DNA from: Gemella sanguinis ATCC 700632
Lineage (GTDB): Bacteria > Bacillota > Bacilli > Staphylococcales > Gemellaceae
Length of the DNA: 64,000 bases
Direction of reading: 5' to 3'
Assembly: GCF_000701685.1 (NCBI RefSeq)
Contig: NZ_JNJO01000009.1
Coordinates: forward strand, 1 to 64,000
The translations under genes were made by a program, and so were the position numbers. The notes below the pieces were generated by a model. It saw nothing but the letters and a program-made list of their open reading frames with translations, did not search any database and was not told the origin of the DNA. Each line of letters begins with the position of its first letter. Positions within the stretch are counted from its first letter, which is position 1. Positions 5,548 through 55,035 of the stretch are shown in pieces.

Positions 5548-6198
5548 ATGAGAGTTCGTAATAGAGCAGATGCTAGAGAGCGTCTTGAAAATAGTCCGGT
5601 TGTTTTTTTACAACCTAAGGACAATAAAGGAAAGTGGAGAGAAATATTTGGAAATAATAATCCGATACATTTAGAAATTGGTAGTGGTAAAGGAAAATTT
5701 ATTCATACTCTTGCAGAAAAGAATCCTAATATAAATTTTATAGCTATGGAAGCACAACCTACAGTTCTAACATTCCTATTAGATAAAGTAGAAGAAACAC
5801 ATAGAGAGAATTTAAAACTAATTTCTGGAAATGCTGAAGACTTATTAGAGTATTTTGCAGATGAAGAGGTTGATCAACTTTACTTAAATTTTTCAGATCC
5901 ATGGCCTAAAAATAGACATGAAAAACGTCGTTTAACTTATCATACTTTCTTAAGTCGTTATGAAGTAATCTTAAATGGAGATAAAAAGATAGTTCAAAAA
6001 ACGGATAACCAAGGTTTATTTGAATATAGCTTGATGAGTTATGTGAAGTATGGGTATATCTTTAATAAATTATCTTTAGATTTAACTAATAGTGTTTATG
6101 AAGAAGATAATATTCATACTGAATATGAAGATAAATTCATTAAAAAAGGTAATAGAATTTATATGGTAGAGGCTATAAAAGTAAAACAGAATATTTAG
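5548..6198 (+). CDS. trmB: tRNA (guanine-N7-)-methyltransferase
   Basis: Forms m7G46 in the variable loop of tRNAs using S-adenosylmethionine. The 216 residues are the usual length. Visible: N-terminal MRVRNRADA, the SAM-binding motif LEIGSGKGKF (about 42-51), and the signature FSDPWPKNRHEKRRL (about 115-130) that carries the catalytic Asp. ATG 5548 has AGAAAGG upstream and sits 12 bp after the peptidase stop, so it is probably cotranscribed. The stop codon lies inside a long perfect palindrome (see 6197-6224). Confidence 0.96.
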   Translation: MRVRNRADARERLENSPVVFLQPKDNKGKWREIFGNNNPIHLEIGSGKGKFIHTLAEKNPNINFIAMEAQPTVLTFLLDKVEETHRENLKLISGNAEDLLEYFADEEVDQLYLNFSDPWPKNRHEKRRLTYHTFLSRYEVILNGDKKIVQKTDNQGLFEYSLMSYVKYGYIFNKLSLDLTNSVYEEDNIHTEYEDKFIKKGNRIYMVEAIKVKQNI

Positions 6199-6224
6199 TT
6201 TACATAAATTTAATTATGTAAACT
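6197..6224. other. dif-like 28-bp palindrome (11-6-11)
   Basis: AGTTTACATAA (6197-6207), a 6-bp spacer ATTTAA, then TTATGTAAACT (6214-6224) form a perfect inverted repeat; the full stem is 14 bp (6194-6227). It has no T-tract on either strand, so it is not a normal terminator. The 11-6-11 geometry is that of Xer dif sites, and the right arm is identical, from memory, to the XerD arm of Bacillus and Staphylococcus dif. It lies 3.2 kb from a xerS gene. The site role is inferred. Confidence 0.4.
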
Positions 6225-6267
6225 AAATAGGATTTATATTATTTTTATATAGAATGGCCAATATATC

Positions 6268-6296
6268 TTGATTTTAAAAAAAAATTTAATTATAAT
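6268..6296 (+). promoter_or_regulatory. Sigma-A promoter of efp
   Basis: TTGATT (6268-6273), 17-bp spacer containing an A/T tract, TATAAT (6291-6296). The predicted start is about 30 nt before the efp ATG, with AAAGGAG between. Confidence 0.75.
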
Positions 6297-6330
6297 AATA
6301 TTAGTATAAATTAAAGGAGAAATAGAAATA

Positions 6331-8771: not shown

Positions 8772-9311
8772 ACATTTTTTTAATAAAATAAGTTAAAAAA
8801 TATACAAAAAATTAAAAAAAGCCATTTAAATTGATTCTAAGCGCTCTATATTGTTTTTGGATAAATAGTACTAAAAAAATTTTTAGAAAGCTTATACGGC
8901 GTTTTACGAGGTCAAAAATCAAGTGCTAACTTAAAATATATGTAATATTAGAAAGAAGGTCTAATATATAATTAATAGATAAAGTAAAAGTTATATTTTG
9001 AAGTTTTATATTAAAAATATATTAAATTAAAAAAAGGGATAAGATATTAAACAATGTAATTAATTATTCAAATAGAGTATGAAGTTAAAAATTGTTTTGA
9101 ATATAAATTATCTATTGATTAAATATAGGAACTAGAGTAATCAAAAATGTTATATAAAACAAAGAATATATAAATGTAGTTTTCAATAAGTAATTGATAA
9201 TTAAATTGTTAAAGTATATAATTTTTTGAAATTAATAATATAATTATAGATAGAAACAATATAAATGTATTTCTAAATTAATATTAGTTTAAATAGGTAG
9301 TATACAAAGTA
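8772..9311. other. AT-rich gene-free region upstream of xerS
   Basis: No credible gene on either strand in about 540 bp (684 bp from rpmB to the xerS ATG). Seen here: a less AT-rich island (about 8838-8935) with stop-broken frames, perhaps a decayed transposase tail; an 8-bp inverted repeat ATATTAGA / TCTAATAT at 8945-8967; and TATAATTTTTTGAAA at 9217-9231, resembling the right half of the streptococcal difSL site but one base shorter. In streptococci difSL sits just upstream of xerS, so a recombination site could be here. No site is proven. Confidence 0.45.
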
Positions 9312-9340: not shown

Positions 9341-9406
9341 ATATTTGTTCGTATAATACATATTATATGTATAAATAAATAGTAGAAGGAGAATCCAGTA
9401 ATACCA

Positions 9407-10453
9407 ATGAATCAGCGTGATTATTATAAAAATAAAATAAATAAAATACTTCCCGAGTTTCCAGATTATATAGATGATTTTGTTGATACATATTATGATA
9501 CTTTATCTCCACTTACATTATATAGATACTTGGAAACATACAAAAACTTTCTTTCATGGACTATTCGCGAAACTATTTCATCTGCTGATAATATTAAAGA
9601 TGTTGAATTAAGTGTCCTTGAAAATATATCTAAAAAAGAAATGGAAAGTTATTTTAAAAGCTTAGCACGTGAGCAAGTTAATGGTAAATATAGATCACAA
9701 ACTACAGTTAATAATTATAAGGCTGCTATGAGATCCTTATATAAGTTTTTAACTGTAACTAGTGAAACTGAACAAGGACGAGCATATTTTGAACGAAATG
9801 TAATGTTAAAAATACCTATTACGCGTGTAAAAGAAACTTTATCCTCAAGATCAAAAAAAATATCTGAAAAGATATTTCTTGATTCTCAAGATGAAGAATT
9901 TCTTAATTTTGTTGAAAACGAATATGAACAAACTCTTTCAAAACATGCAAAAAGTTTCTTTTTACGAGATAAAAAGCGTGATTTAGCTATACTTACTTTA
10001 TTTCTTAAAAGTGGAATTCGTGTTAATGAACTAGCTAATTTAAAAGTTAAAGATGTAGATTTTCTTAATAGTGAAATAAATGTTATTCGTAAAGGAAATA
10101 AAACAGATACAGTAATAATTACCCAATCAGCATTAGATAAACTTAATGACTACCTTTCTTCATTAGGATTTAAATTAGAACGTGAAGATTATGTTTTTAT
10201 CAATAAAAACAAAAAAGGACTATCAATAAGAGCAATACAAAAACTTGTAATGAAATACACAGATGCATTTAATGTACCTATGTCCCCTCACAAACTTCGT
10301 CATAGTTATGGGACAAAACTAGCACTCAAAACTAACGGAAATATTCCAATTATTATGACTCAGATGGGACACTCTAACAGTGATACTTCAATGCTCTATA
10401 TTAATGAATCTAAGAAAATTATTAAACAATCTATAGATAAATTAGACGATTAA
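9407..10453 (+). CDS. xerS: XerS-type tyrosine recombinase (chromosome dimer resolution)
   Basis: A 348-residue tyrosine recombinase resembling streptococcal XerS, which alone resolves chromosome dimers at difSL with FtsK. The N-terminal SAM-like domain (about 20-120) includes the XerS-like phrases LYRYLETYKNFLSW and LSVLENISKKEME. The catalytic domain has the full set: R205 (GIRVNEL), K229 (RKGNK), H295 and R298 (PHKLRHS), H322 (MGHSN) and Y331. The AAGGAG site is 15 nt from the ATG, longer than usual, with no better start. It has its own promoter, sits at the point where gene polarity reverses, and lies 2 kb from ftsK, all fitting a terminus function. Confidence 0.85.
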   Translation: MNQRDYYKNKINKILPEFPDYIDDFVDTYYDTLSPLTLYRYLETYKNFLSWTIRETISSADNIKDVELSVLENISKKEMESYFKSLAREQVNGKYRSQTTVNNYKAAMRSLYKFLTVTSETEQGRAYFERNVMLKIPITRVKETLSSRSKKISEKIFLDSQDEEFLNFVENEYEQTLSKHAKSFFLRDKKRDLAILTLFLKSGIRVNELANLKVKDVDFLNSEINVIRKGNKTDTVIITQSALDKLNDYLSSLGFKLEREDYVFINKNKKGLSIRAIQKLVMKYTDAFNVPMSPHKLRHSYGTKLALKTNGNIPIIMTQMGHSNSDTSMLYINESKKIIKQSIDKLDD

Positions 10454-10502
10454 AAGAATATGGTTCACATAATGTTATTTATGTAAACCATATTCTTTTT
10501 TT
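10452..10502. terminator. Bidirectional terminator between xerS and grpB-like gene
   Basis: A 19-bp stem with one mismatch (10454-10472 with 10479-10497) followed by seven T residues on the + strand and preceded by AAAA. It begins at the xerS stop codon, and the stop codon of the convergent gene lies across its loop. Its core repeats the palindrome found at 6197-6224. Confidence 0.85.
10462..10489. other. Second dif-like 28-bp palindrome (inside terminator)
   Basis: GGTTCACATAA (10462-10472), spacer TGTTAT, TTATGTAAACC (10479-10489). From memory it matches the E. coli dif consensus at about 20 of 28 positions, including the whole CATAATGT and TTATGT core. It stands exactly at the strand switch. 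It is also a good terminator, so the resemblance may be incidental. Confidence 0.3.
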
Positions 10503-12542: not shown

Positions 12543-14807
12543 TTATTCATAGTCTTCTGCAAATTCTTTTTCTAAAAATACCTTTCTAGGCTTACTACCA
12601 TCTACAGGTCCGATATAACCATCTTCTTCTAGCATATCAATTATTCTTGCTGCTCTATTATACCCTATTTTGAATCGTCTTTGCAATAATGAAGAAGAAG
12701 CTTTTTGAGTTTTTGCAATAAATAAAAGTACTTCTTTATATAAAGGATCAGCTTCATCTGCTGAAGAGCCGCCACTTTGTGAGCTAACCTCACTAGGTGT
12801 CATATTTGGATCATATTGAGCTTCTGATTGACTTTTTACAAAATCAACTACTTTTTCTACCTCATCATCTGATAAGAAAGCACCTTGAATTCTGACAGGT
12901 TTACTTGAATCAGCTGATAAGTATAACATATCTCCTTTTCCTAATAGTGTTTCCGCCCCAGACTTATCTAATATAGTTCTTGAATCGACACTGGAACTTA
13001 CAGCAAATGCTATTCTAGAAGGAATATTAGTTTTTATCACACCAGTGATAACATCAACAGAAGGTCTTTGTGTTGCTATAATCATATGTATTCCTGCTGC
13101 ACGAGCTTTTTGGGCAATACGTGCTATAGATTCTTCTACTTCTTTAGATGATACCATCATAAGGTCAGCTAATTCATCAATAATTACAACTATATAAGGC
13201 AATTCTTTGTAATCAGGATCTTTTTCTGCTATTTTATTATACCCTTCAATATTTCTTACTCTAGTTCGAGCAAATTCTCTATAACGACTTTCCATCTCTA
13301 ATACTACTTTATGAAGAACATCTGCAGCTTTTAGAGGATCTGTTACAACAGAAGTTAGTAAGTGAGGAATTCCATCATAGATAGAAAGTTCTACCATTTT
13401 AGGGTCAATCATTATAAGTTTTACTTTATCAGGTTTATTTTTTAATAAAATACTTGTAATAATTGTATTTACACAAACAGACTTCCCACTACCTGTTGAA
13501 CCAGCAATAAGTAAATGTGGAGTCTTATCAATTCTTGTAAACATAGCTTCACCAGATACATCTTTACCTAAGGCAACAGATAATGGAGAATTATCTTTAT
13601 CATTTACAAATACTTCTTTCATTGTAACTAATTCATTTACTGTATTTGGTATTTCGATACCAATTAATGATTTTCCAGGTATTGGTGCTTCTATTCTTAC
13701 ATCTTTTGCTGCAAGGTTTAAAGCTATATCATTACTTAAATTAACAATTTTACTGACTTTTGTTCCTGGAGTTGGTAAAATTTGGAATTGTGTAATTGAA
13801 GGACCTACAATAGCTTTAACTATTTTTACTTCAATACCAAAATTGTTAAATGTACTTTGTAATATTTTAGATTTTTCTACAATGTCTCCCTTAGTAACAG
13901 TTTGTTTTTTTGTTGGATTATTAAGTAAAGTTATTGGAGGCAGAACGTAGTTATCATACGATTCTTCATTTACTTCAATTTTATCAATTTCTTGAGCAGG
14001 CTCCTCTTTTATCTCTTGTATAATTCTTCTCTTAGTAGGACGTGAAGGTACTATTTCATCAGTATTTTCCTCTTCGGGAAACTCTCTAATATCAACTACT
14101 AATTCTTTATCTTTAATATCATTATATCTTTGCTCATTAGAATTTTCATTATTTAAATCTTCAGTATTATTTATTTCAAATTCAGAAGCTTCAATATTAC
14201 TTTCTTTTTCTTCAACATATGTATCACGTTCAAAAGCATTAGATACATAATATTTAATCTTAAGTACAAAACTTCTATAGTTAATATTTAAGTATAGAAC
14301 AATTATTGTTATAATTGCTGAAATAACAATAAGTAGTGAACCATAGTAAGAAAGTAAGTAAATTAGAAGTTTAACAGGATAGTATGAAATTATCCCACCA
14401 CCATATAAAGATACTTTGTTATTATAAATATCACTAAATGAAATATAGTTAGTATCTTTATTACCTATTAAAACTAGCTGAAATAAGAAATCTATTAAAA
14501 TAAATACACTGGCAACTAATATTGGAGATTTTAATTTTTTATCTAAAATATAATATATAGGTATTGCAATAATAATTAAATAAAAAATATAGCTAAAACT
14601 TCCGAATAAATATTTAAAAAAAGAATCAAAAAATCTACCGATTATTCCCATTTGTAAAACAGATAGTATTACAATAAGTATAGAAATAACAAAGTATAAA
14701 GACCTATACGCTTCTTTAGACAAAGTAGGTATATTATTTTTTTTCTTATTTGTCTTTTTTGTATTTTTTTTCTTAGTACTCTTTGTTTTTTTTGTTTTAT
14801 TACTCAA
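12543..14807 (-). CDS. ftsK: DNA translocase FtsK/SpoIIIE
   Basis: Septal DNA pump that clears chromosome from the closing septum and activates Xer recombination at dif. About 754 residues: a basic N-terminus, four membrane helices (about 30-180), an acidic linker, then the RecA-like motor with Walker A AGSTGSGKS (about 430-440) and Walker B IDELADLMM, and the C-terminal gamma winged helix (LLQRRFKIGYNRAARIIDML) that reads polar DNA motifs. The start is set at TTG 14807 because AAAGGAG lies 7 nt upstream; longer in-frame starts would be buried deeper in the ferredoxin gene. It overlaps that gene by 8 bp and closes a seven-gene operon next to the putative terminus. Confidence 0.95.
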   Translation of the reverse strand: MSNKTKKTKSTKKKNTKKTNKKKNNIPTLSKEAYRSLYFVISILIVILSVLQMGIIGRFFDSFFKYLFGSFSYIFYLIIIAIPIYYILDKKLKSPILVASVFILIDFLFQLVLIGNKDTNYISFSDIYNNKVSLYGGGIISYYPVKLLIYLLSYYGSLLIVISAIITIIVLYLNINYRSFVLKIKYYVSNAFERDTYVEEKESNIEASEFEINNTEDLNNENSNEQRYNDIKDKELVVDIREFPEEENTDEIVPSRPTKRRIIQEIKEEPAQEIDKIEVNEESYDNYVLPPITLLNNPTKKQTVTKGDIVEKSKILQSTFNNFGIEVKIVKAIVGPSITQFQILPTPGTKVSKIVNLSNDIALNLAAKDVRIEAPIPGKSLIGIEIPNTVNELVTMKEVFVNDKDNSPLSVALGKDVSGEAMFTRIDKTPHLLIAGSTGSGKSVCVNTIITSILLKNKPDKVKLIMIDPKMVELSIYDGIPHLLTSVVTDPLKAADVLHKVVLEMESRYREFARTRVRNIEGYNKIAEKDPDYKELPYIVVIIDELADLMMVSSKEVEESIARIAQKARAAGIHMIIATQRPSVDVITGVIKTNIPSRIAFAVSSSVDSRTILDKSGAETLLGKGDMLYLSADSSKPVRIQGAFLSDDEVEKVVDFVKSQSEAQYDPNMTPSEVSSQSGGSSADEADPLYKEVLLFIAKTQKASSSLLQRRFKIGYNRAARIIDMLEEDGYIGPVDGSKPRKVFLEKEFAEDYE

Positions 14808-15036
14808 TATTCTCTCCTTTCTCTTTCCCATTCTCAATAAATATCGCCTCTGTTGGACAATTTTCATATGCTTCTATCACAAGACTTTTGAATGATTCAG
14901 GAATTTCCTTTTTAAATTGATTATTATCTATATGGCAAAATGCTATGCCATCTTCATCATAATCATATACATCTGGACATATGGCGTTGCAGTTACCACA
15001 TGCGATACAATTTTCTCTTATTATTTTAGTCTTCAT
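14800..15036 (-). CDS. fer: Small [4Fe-4S] ferredoxin
   Basis: A 78-residue single-cluster ferredoxin of the Bacillus Fer type, a low-potential electron carrier. Cluster ligands are visible as CIACGNCNAICP (residues 11-22) with the remote Cys in NCPTEAI near residue 59. The protein is acidic apart from its ends, as usual. It overlaps rdgB upstream (11 bp) and ftsK downstream (8 bp), indicating translational coupling. Its redox partner is not in the window. Confidence 0.93.
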   Translation of the reverse strand: MKTKIIRENCIACGNCNAICPDVYDYDEDGIAFCHIDNNQFKKEIPESFKSLVIEAYENCPTEAIFIENGKEKGENIE

Positions 15037-52858: not shown

Positions 52859-53407
52859 CTAATTTTCCAAAAAGTTATTTAACTCATTATTATCTAGTAC
52901 GTTAGATTTAGGGAGCTTATCTAAGCTTTCTAAACCGAAAACATCTAAAAATAAATCAGTTGTTTCATATAATTTAGGTTTACCTATAGTATCTAATGTT
53001 TTATTCGAAACTATAAGTTCCTTAGCGACCAATGAATGAATTATTGAATCACTACTAACACCTCTTATTTTATCTATTTGCACTTTAGTAATAGGTTGAT
53101 TATACGCTATTATTGCTAAGGTTTCAATAGACGCTTTAGATAACTTAACGAGATTTTTTGAAGATATAACATGTTTGATTTTATCATATGCTTTATCTTC
53201 AACTAATAATTTATAAGTTGTCCCAAAATTTTTAACAACTAAATAACTATCATTTTTATTATATTCTTCTGTAAAAATATTTAATATATTTTCAGCTTCA
53301 TGCTGCTCTAAATCCATAAAATTAGACACAAACTCAATACTAAGTCCTTCTTCACCCTTTATAAAAAGTAAAGCTTCTATCATTTTTTTTGTTTCATCTA
53401 ATAACAT
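52859..53407 (-). CDS. scpB: Segregation and condensation protein B
   Basis: Winged-helix dimer of the Smc-ScpA-ScpB condensin. The 182 residues have IEALLFIKGEEGLSIEFV, LSKASIETLAIIAYNQPITK and IRGVSSDSIIHSL typical of ScpB. It lies 2 bp after scpA. Confidence 0.94.
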   Translation of the reverse strand: MLLDETKKMIEALLFIKGEEGLSIEFVSNFMDLEQHEAENILNIFTEEYNKNDSYLVVKNFGTTYKLLVEDKAYDKIKHVISSKNLVKLSKASIETLAIIAYNQPITKVQIDKIRGVSSDSIIHSLVAKELIVSNKTLDTIGKPKLYETTDLFLDVFGLESLDKLPKSNVLDNNELNNFLEN

Positions 53408-53409
53408 AC

Positions 53410-54114
53410 TTATTTTTCCTCTACAATATATTCTAATGATAATTCATCCTTGTTATTACTACAAAATATCTGTTGATCTTTAATCATTGTAAGAATACTT
53501 ATAAATACAAGTACTAACTCATACTTTTCTGTATAACTATCTACTAATTCATTAAATAAGATTTTTTTATTATTTTGAAATTTTAAAAGAAGATCTTCTT
53601 TAATTTTTTCTAAAGATATTTCTCTTTTATAACTTATAATGCTTTGATCATTATTATTATTATCGAAAGTTTTTAAAATATTTTCCATAGCATGAAGTAA
53701 TTTATTTGAAGAGATATTTAAATTTCTTAAATCAACTTCCGTTTCAATATCAATACTTTCTTTTTCTAAATATTGGGCTCTACTTTGATGTAGAGCCTCT
53801 AATTTTTGACTTAATTCTTTATAGTTTTTATACTCAATTAATTGTTGAACTAGATCATCTTCAACTATATCTTGCTCATCGTTATTAAAAACAGGAAGTA
53901 AACTTTTACTTTTAATATGAATTAATGTTGCTGCCATAACTATGTATTCTTCAGCATTTTCCAATGAAAATTCATCATTATTATTTATATAATCTAAATA
54001 GCTTTCTGTTAATTTTGCTATTGGTATATTATAAATGTCTATTTCCATTTTTTCAATTAAATGAAGTAGTAAATCTAAAGGACCTTGAAAAACATCCAAA
54101 TTGACATTATACAT
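53410..54114 (-). CDS. scpA: Segregation and condensation protein A (kleisin)
   Basis: Kleisin that bridges Smc heads. The 234 residues start with the signature VFQGPLDLLLHLIEKMEIDI, then YIVMAATLIHIKSKSLLP; the C-terminal winged helix (about 170-225) includes VLVFISILTMIKDQQI. The gene follows the XerD-like gene by 15 bp, as in staphylococci and streptococci. Confidence 0.95.
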   Translation of the reverse strand: MYNVNLDVFQGPLDLLLHLIEKMEIDIYNIPIAKLTESYLDYINNNDEFSLENAEEYIVMAATLIHIKSKSLLPVFNNDEQDIVEDDLVQQLIEYKNYKELSQKLEALHQSRAQYLEKESIDIETEVDLRNLNISSNKLLHAMENILKTFDNNNNDQSIISYKREISLEKIKEDLLLKFQNNKKILFNELVDSYTEKYELVLVFISILTMIKDQQIFCSNNKDELSLEYIVEEK

Positions 54115-54129
54115 TACTTAAATTTTCCT

Positions 54130-55035
54130 TTATTTCATTGCTTTTCTAGGATGATTAGAAAACATCCTTTTTATTGCTTTTGTTTTTTTCAAACTTTTTA
54201 TATATGATTTTAAACTATGTATATTTTTTAAACCTAAAATCTCTTGAACATCTTGAATTGGTACATTATCTTCTAACAAATGAACAGCTAAAGAATTTCG
54301 AAAATTCATTGTATTTAATTCTTTAGTTAAATCAAGTTCTTTTTGACGTTTTTTAAATATTTTCCAATATCCTTGTCTACTTATTCCTTCACCATCATGG
54401 TTTAAAAATAATTTACTTTCTTCAGAAATTGGAACTTTATGTTTTTTTAATGCATCCAAATAATTGCGGATTGCTTCAATTGATTCTGTATTCAAAGCTA
54501 CTGTTCTATAGCCATCCTGTTTTCTATACTTGATATAACCGATTTCTAAGTTAACATCTTTCATTTCTAAATTAATACATTCTGTAGGTTTAATCCCTAT
54601 TGAGTATGACAATTCGAATATTGCTTTATCTCTAAAATCATTTAAAGTAAGAGTATCAATATCTAATATTTGTGCAATCTCATCTCTAGTAAAAATAACT
54701 AAATCATGTTCAGCATCTTTTGTAATTTTTATATCAATCTGTGGTTTATCTTTAATAATATTTTTGTCAAAAAGATATTCGCTATATACGTGTACAGTTG
54801 ATACTGTTCTAGCAAGTGTAGCAGCTGAATATTTATTATCTCTTAAATATTCCATATAGTTATTAATACAAACCTCTGTTAACCATGAGCGAATATCATC
54901 GCAGTCATAGCCATTGCTATCAAGATAAATAAATAATTTTCTCAAATCACGTTCATATGATTTTACTGTGTTTGATGAAAAATGTTTTTTATCAATTAGA
55001 TAATTTTGAAAATCTTTAAAATCATTTTTGTTCAT
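54130..55035 (-). CDS. XerD-like protein, tyrosine-recombinase fold with altered catalytic residues
   Basis: A 301-residue XerD homologue. The N-terminal core-binding domain (1-95) is good, but the catalytic domain is degenerate: the first Arg is Lys (GIKPTEC, residue 149), the His of HxLR is Met (MNFRNS, 243), the next His is Leu (LGLKN, 269). Arg246 and Tyr278 remain. It holds the place of xerD in the staphylococcal cluster before scpA; streptococci have a similar XerD-like protein there. It is probably inactive as a recombinase and may serve Smc-ScpAB or another structural role. AGGGGG precedes ATG. Confidence 0.88.
   Translation of the reverse strand: MNKNDFKDFQNYLIDKKHFSSNTVKSYERDLRKLFIYLDSNGYDCDDIRSWLTEVCINNYMEYLRDNKYSAATLARTVSTVHVYSEYLFDKNIIKDKPQIDIKITKDAEHDLVIFTRDEIAQILDIDTLTLNDFRDKAIFELSYSIGIKPTECINLEMKDVNLEIGYIKYRKQDGYRTVALNTESIEAIRNYLDALKKHKVPISEESKLFLNHDGEGISRQGYWKIFKKRQKELDLTKELNTMNFRNSLAVHLLEDNVPIQDVQEILGLKNIHSLKSYIKSLKKTKAIKRMFSNHPRKAMK

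Follow-up and report, generated by a model that had tools for sequence, protein, structure and literature searches.

Xer recombinases and SMC complexes at the terminus

In Bacillus subtilis, XerD unloads SMC at the terminus (Karaboja 2021, as described in PMC12322038, PMC10945525, PMC8357415 and PMC9733580). Recombination and SMC unloading are hard to separate in this species, since one protein does both. Another related system is XerS, the site of which, difSL, is located immediately beside xerS (PMC5357621). Here, these systems are compared with a terminus region of Gemella sanguinis ATCC 700632, of which a stretch of 64,000 nucleotides (the window) was analysed. A 28-bp palindrome at positions 6197–6224 proved to be a real site, but not the recombination site of the chromosome.

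A symmetric site composed of two XerD arms

The palindrome, site A, lies in the gap between trmB and efp and reads exactly AGTTTACATAA-ATTTAA-TTATGTAAACT (no strand assigned, as for the other repeats and hairpins at sites A and B). The first-pass annotation had described it as two symmetric 11-bp arms around a 6-bp centre, and the sequence agrees at every position. The inverted repeat is longer than stated there, as it is perfect over 6192–6229 with arms of 16 bp (6192–6207 and 6214–6229) and overlaps the trmB stop codon. From dinucleotide shuffles of the window, 0.00 chance matches to the pattern of site A are expected. As RNA, the site has a strong predicted fold (−17.6 kcal/mol, z −5.4). 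The same annotation had argued that it is no ordinary terminator, as there is no T-tract; indeed, no T-run follows the stem and site A is missing from the listing of the terminator scan. An ordinary terminator was therefore rejected for site A, while site B, described below, does overlap one. A phage origin of the stretch 6150–6330 was rejected as well, as no match was found. The named relatives that share the gene order around site A are Gemella species.

Eight Bacillus and Staphylococcales genomes each have a single classical 28-bp dif, ACTTCCTATAATATATATTATGTAAACT or a near copy of it. Its right arm is TTATGTAAACT, except in genome G017, where it is TTATGTTAACC. The Gemella arm is identical to this XerD arm of Staphylococcaceae and Bacillus dif, as the first-pass annotation had proposed. 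Classical dif itself is absent from the four Gemellaceae genomes scanned (G000, G004, G008 and G011), and a retained classical dif was rejected for these four. In one Staphylococcales genome (G044:C1:1625931, L250), dif is accompanied at a distance of about 300 bp by an additional exact XerD half-site, TTATGTAAACT, which may represent an asymmetric XerD site. Separately, an exact GTTTACATAA-N6-TTATGTAAAC palindrome occurs in three genomes of Staphylococcales genus g7 (L159–L161, around 1501–1526). It has the core of the Gemella sites and is part of a DUF309-like reading frame close to xerD, with scpA on one side and deoB and xerD on the other.

When both arms of 20 sites are pooled, the consensus is T-T-A-T-G-T-A-A-A-C-T from the centre outward. 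The information content is high through position 11 (T in 33 of 40 arms) and drops at position 12. Conservation at positions 1–10 is partly caused by the choice of sites, because these positions were used to pick them, which does not hold for position 11. The 6-bp centre is present in all 20 sites, but the spacing was fixed by the scan. At sites A and B, the sequence of the outer stems varies and their complementarity tends to persist, so hairpin selection overlaps there. The core is also kept with little or no longer stem at sites C4, C6, C3 and A8.

Further copies around the terminus

A search for the 26-bp core with at most two mismatches yielded 21 matches in nine Gemella genomes. The palindrome is present in two or three copies per genome. 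Of these matches, 16 are located less than 8 kb from xerS on the same contig, and two in G005 appear to fit the same order, judging by the distance of their contig to the xerD-like gene. Three lie away from the terminus (G001:C34, G007:C7:379079 and G000:C1:69648). The last one (69648–69673, L003) has two mismatches and is situated off the terminus contig. The reversed-pattern control gave 0 matches in all 80 genomes of the core search. A dispersed repeat or uptake-type sequence was rejected, as all other matches are restricted to the terminus. G004, a genome in a single contig of 2.08 Mb, has its three matches all inside 7.1 kb. The chance of this is approximately 3e-5 under uniform placement, the genomes of these related species not being independent tests.

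The copies occupy three syntenic places in Gemella: A in the trmB-efp gap, B behind xerS and C at the 3′ end of ftsK. Near the terminus, the genome of the window has A and B only. Site B, GGTTCACATAA-TGTTAT-TTATGTAAACC (10462–10489), directly follows xerS; relatives also have copies behind xerS. It is overlapped by a terminator-like hairpin with a longer stem and T-runs on both strands (10452–10499), between the convergent xerS and GrpB-like genes. A search for site C at the 3′ end of ftsK (12543–14867, minus strand), which encodes a protein with a gamma domain, gave no match in the window. Syntenic counterparts of site A are present in the other eight Gemella species. The conservation near the terminus in relatives that the first-pass annotation had asked for is thus borne out, whereas its expectation that a dif is unique fails on the two or three copies. 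The pair G001 and G007 has weaker A sites, and a further copy in G007 is situated at a distance of about 51 kb.

In the window, GC skew is positive up to approximately 10 kb and mostly negative thereafter, with the flip at 9–11 kb. A relative with a complete genome of 1.76 Mb (G008) has positive skew until 850 kb and negative skew after 890 kb; its xerS gene, at 876 kb, falls between the two. Taken together, the two flips near xerS indicate that the window covers the terminus. A sister genus has the same XerD-like protein as Gemella, with lost catalytic residues, yet no clear symmetric site near xerS. One of its genomes, G011, has two exact XerD half-sites at about 4 kb or less from xerS, at least one of which is apparently coding. 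In a B. subtilis genome, no symmetric site with up to three mismatches was found. Elsewhere in the window, positions 1066–1975 contain two small lipoprotein-like genes in tandem, which are paralogues.

XerS and its candidate dif

The tyrosine recombinase XerS is encoded at 9407–10453 (plus strand; NF003462, 353.6 bits with a cut-off of 267). Its catalytic set R-K-H-R-H-Y is intact, and it does not have the recognition helix of XerD. Upstream, between the xerS promoter and the start codon, lies TTGTTCGTATAA-TACATA-TTATATGTATAA (9345–9374, plus strand), an imperfect inverted repeat with a 12-6-12 plan. This 30-bp block, TTRTTCGYATAATACATATTATATGTATAA, is near-invariant upstream of xerS in 12 Gemellaceae species from two genera. 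Except for the promoter and the block, the xerS upstream regions are mostly unalignable between species. The element at 9345–9374 is a better candidate dif than the palindrome. Ahead of the xerS promoter, the intergenic DNA is very AT-rich over roughly 500 bp (8780–9310) and lacks conservation among Gemella species.

A XerD-like protein encoded beside scpA and scpB

A xerD-like gene (301 aa; 54130–55035, minus strand) is located directly upstream of scpA (53410–54114, minus strand; PF02616), encoding the kleisin of the SMC complex, and scpB (52859–53407, minus strand; PF04079 and TIGR00281). This arrangement is found in all 13 Gemellaceae, comprising nine of nine Gemella and four sister-genus genomes. 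The protein does not reach the TIGR02225 (XerD) cut-off (184.9 vs 329.6 bits). Instead of the catalytic set R-K-H-R-H-Y, it has K-K-M-R-L-Y; compared to E. coli XerD, the changes are R148 to K, H244 to M (T in the sister genus) and H270 to L. In two Gemella species (L120 and L122), the nucleophile Tyr279 is replaced by His.

In XerD, the helix with R220-Q221 (E. coli numbering) contacts the XerD arm. It reads TRQGFWK in most XerD proteins and is kept as SRQGYWK in the protein of the window. Residues R220, Q221, W224, K225 and K228 are invariant among 22 XerD and XerD-like proteins; XerC and XerS differ there. The XerD-like protein is the likely reader of the palindrome. As the frame is open in 13 of 13 genomes, with 62–63% identity inside the genus, the gene is not a decaying pseudogene. 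An AlphaFold model predicts two domains (pLDDT 85, pTM 0.59). In Foldseek, it matches Xer and Cre recombinases best among PDB structures; the TM-scores are modest, at about 0.45–0.6, which is consistent with uncertain packing of the modelled domains.

A parallel in other Bacilli

A scan of 201 Bacilli genomes for clusters of symmetric sites revealed such clusters in one further family (f7), which appears to be Paenibacillaceae-type. Two of its genomes of 6.8 Mb, G083 and G255, have five symmetric GTTWACATAA-N6-TTATGTWAAC sites each, which fall inside 37 kb in the former and 26 kb in the latter. Under uniform placement, the chance of such clustering is 1e-9 to 4e-9. The array of G083 is situated approximately 90–130 kb past the skew switch, and the classical-dif pattern was not found in either genome. 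XerD of these genomes scores over the TIGR02225 cut-off and keeps the RQGFWK helix, but T, A, G or S has replaced the catalytic K172, and two of the proteins have K in place of R148. Xer-type genes with intact catalytic residues are present in or beside the arrays. In a second lineage, symmetric XerD-arm arrays near the terminus are thus accompanied by the loss of catalytic residues from XerD. The Paenibacillaceae-type case forms an independent parallel to Gemella, and streptococcal XerD-like proteins may be a further case. K172-less XerD over the TIGR02225 cut-off was listed for G083, G255, G138, G245, G235 and G124 (L254–L265). The dimer-resolution arrangement of these genomes, with active Xer paralogues near the terminus array, was matched to no described one.

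Proposed role and alternative explanations

It is reasonably probable that a recombination-dead XerD acts on paired-arm sites to unload SMC, while XerS resolves chromosome dimers. The palindrome at 6197–6224 would be one of a few symmetric double XerD-arm sites around the Gemella terminus, at which two XerD-like monomers would bind, facing each other across the 6-bp centre. We propose that the protein is unable to recombine because three of its six catalytic residues are lost. Bound to the paired sites, it would mark the terminus and take arriving SMC-ScpAB off the DNA, as B. subtilis XerD does. Dimer resolution would be passed to XerS, acting at 9345–9374.

The first-pass annotation had favoured another role, in which the palindrome is a symmetric dif-like site for a single recombinase, the 9407–10453 product, here identified as XerS. 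Its 11-6-11 plan, its place at the terminus and the presence of xerS 3 kb away agree with this role. However, there are two or three copies per genome, and if A recombined with B, efp, rpmB and xerS would be lost or inverted, yet the order of these genes is conserved. In addition, the recognition helix of XerS differs, and a separate near-invariant element, 9345–9374, occupies the usual place of difSL beside xerS. On copy number, the conserved order between the copies and this element, the role was rejected as very improbable. What stands of the earlier annotation is a real, conserved and terminus-linked site of two XerD arms; what is not supported is its assignment as the dif of the 9407–10453 product. 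Harder still to believe, if anything, is that the sites are what remains of a decaying mobile element or ancestral classical dif. The arms do equal the ancestral XerD arm and no classical dif is left in the four Gemellaceae genomes scanned, but the sites are near-perfect and syntenic at three places in nine species, unlike relics, and both arms are of XerD type, which a single dif cannot leave.

Ordinary RNA hairpins or terminators could also share the core by chance. T-runs accompany the long hairpin of site B, the predicted fold of site A has −17.6 kcal/mol and the complementarity of the outer stems is kept without sequence conservation. Nevertheless, the core and its 11-bp arm are conserved far beyond what pairing demands, even where there is hardly any longer stem. 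The core is also found almost wholly at the terminus instead of being spread over the terminators of the genome, and the T-run is missing at site A, making this explanation decidedly unlikely. Somewhat less unlikely, though still doubtful, is that the XerD-like protein binds the sites for another purpose, either to pause replication forks or to regulate the genes nearby. The same evidence for binding applies here, and three close sites where the forks meet would suit a fork trap. On the other hand, the sites are symmetric without obvious polarity, they are located at 3′ ends of genes and not at promoters, and the linkage to scpAB points to SMC.

Unloading of SMC by a XerD-like protein would have broader consequences. 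Evolution in Gemella appears to have split the roles, with XerS for dimers and a XerD that is devoid of catalytic residues but keeps the helix, the terminus sites and the place beside scpAB. The chances are about even that, independently in two or more lineages of Bacilli, XerD became a recombination-dead protein that serves only as an SMC unloader or road-block on symmetric double-arm sites, similar to MatP/matS, with another Xer enzyme resolving dimers. If true, a natural system would allow a direct test of the recombination-independent role of XerD, and short defined sites could be used to move SMC unloading around the chromosome. No description of this arrangement in Gemella was found in the literature searched.

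Comparison with known systems

With classical dif, the Gemella palindrome shares the right arm TTATGTAAACT, the 6-bp centre and the place at the terminus. Unlike classical dif, which has distinct XerC and XerD arms and a single copy per chromosome, it consists of two XerD arms and is present in two or three copies per genome. The catalytic XerC and XerD pair of classical systems is absent, Gemella having no match over the XerD cut-off. Like streptococci and lactococci, Gemella has XerS and a conserved element directly upstream. The candidate counterpart of the difSL of about 31 bp adjacent to xerS is the element at 9345–9374, the sequence of which differs from streptococcal difSL, and not the palindrome, which is 3 kb away.

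The XerD binding sites (XDS) of B. subtilis, as far as the papers cited above describe them, also resemble the Gemella sites. In both cases there is a XerD-family protein, with the DNA-reading residues of XerD in Gemella, as well as a XerD arm (consensus TTATGTAAACT), several copies concentrated at the terminus and a link to SMC. The Gemella protein differs in that it is without catalytic residues and encoded beside scpAB, and its sites are symmetric pairs of arms; B. subtilis XerD, unlike the Gemella protein, also recombines at dif. E. coli matS, bound by MatP, likewise consists of several short palindromes at the terminus, from which the SMC complex MukBEF is excluded (PMC10945525). Unlike the Gemella sites, matS sites are numerous and spread over hundreds of kb, and both protein and sequence are unrelated. 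If the proposed role is true, Gemella would possess a Gram-positive counterpart of MatP/matS that was built from a recombinase.
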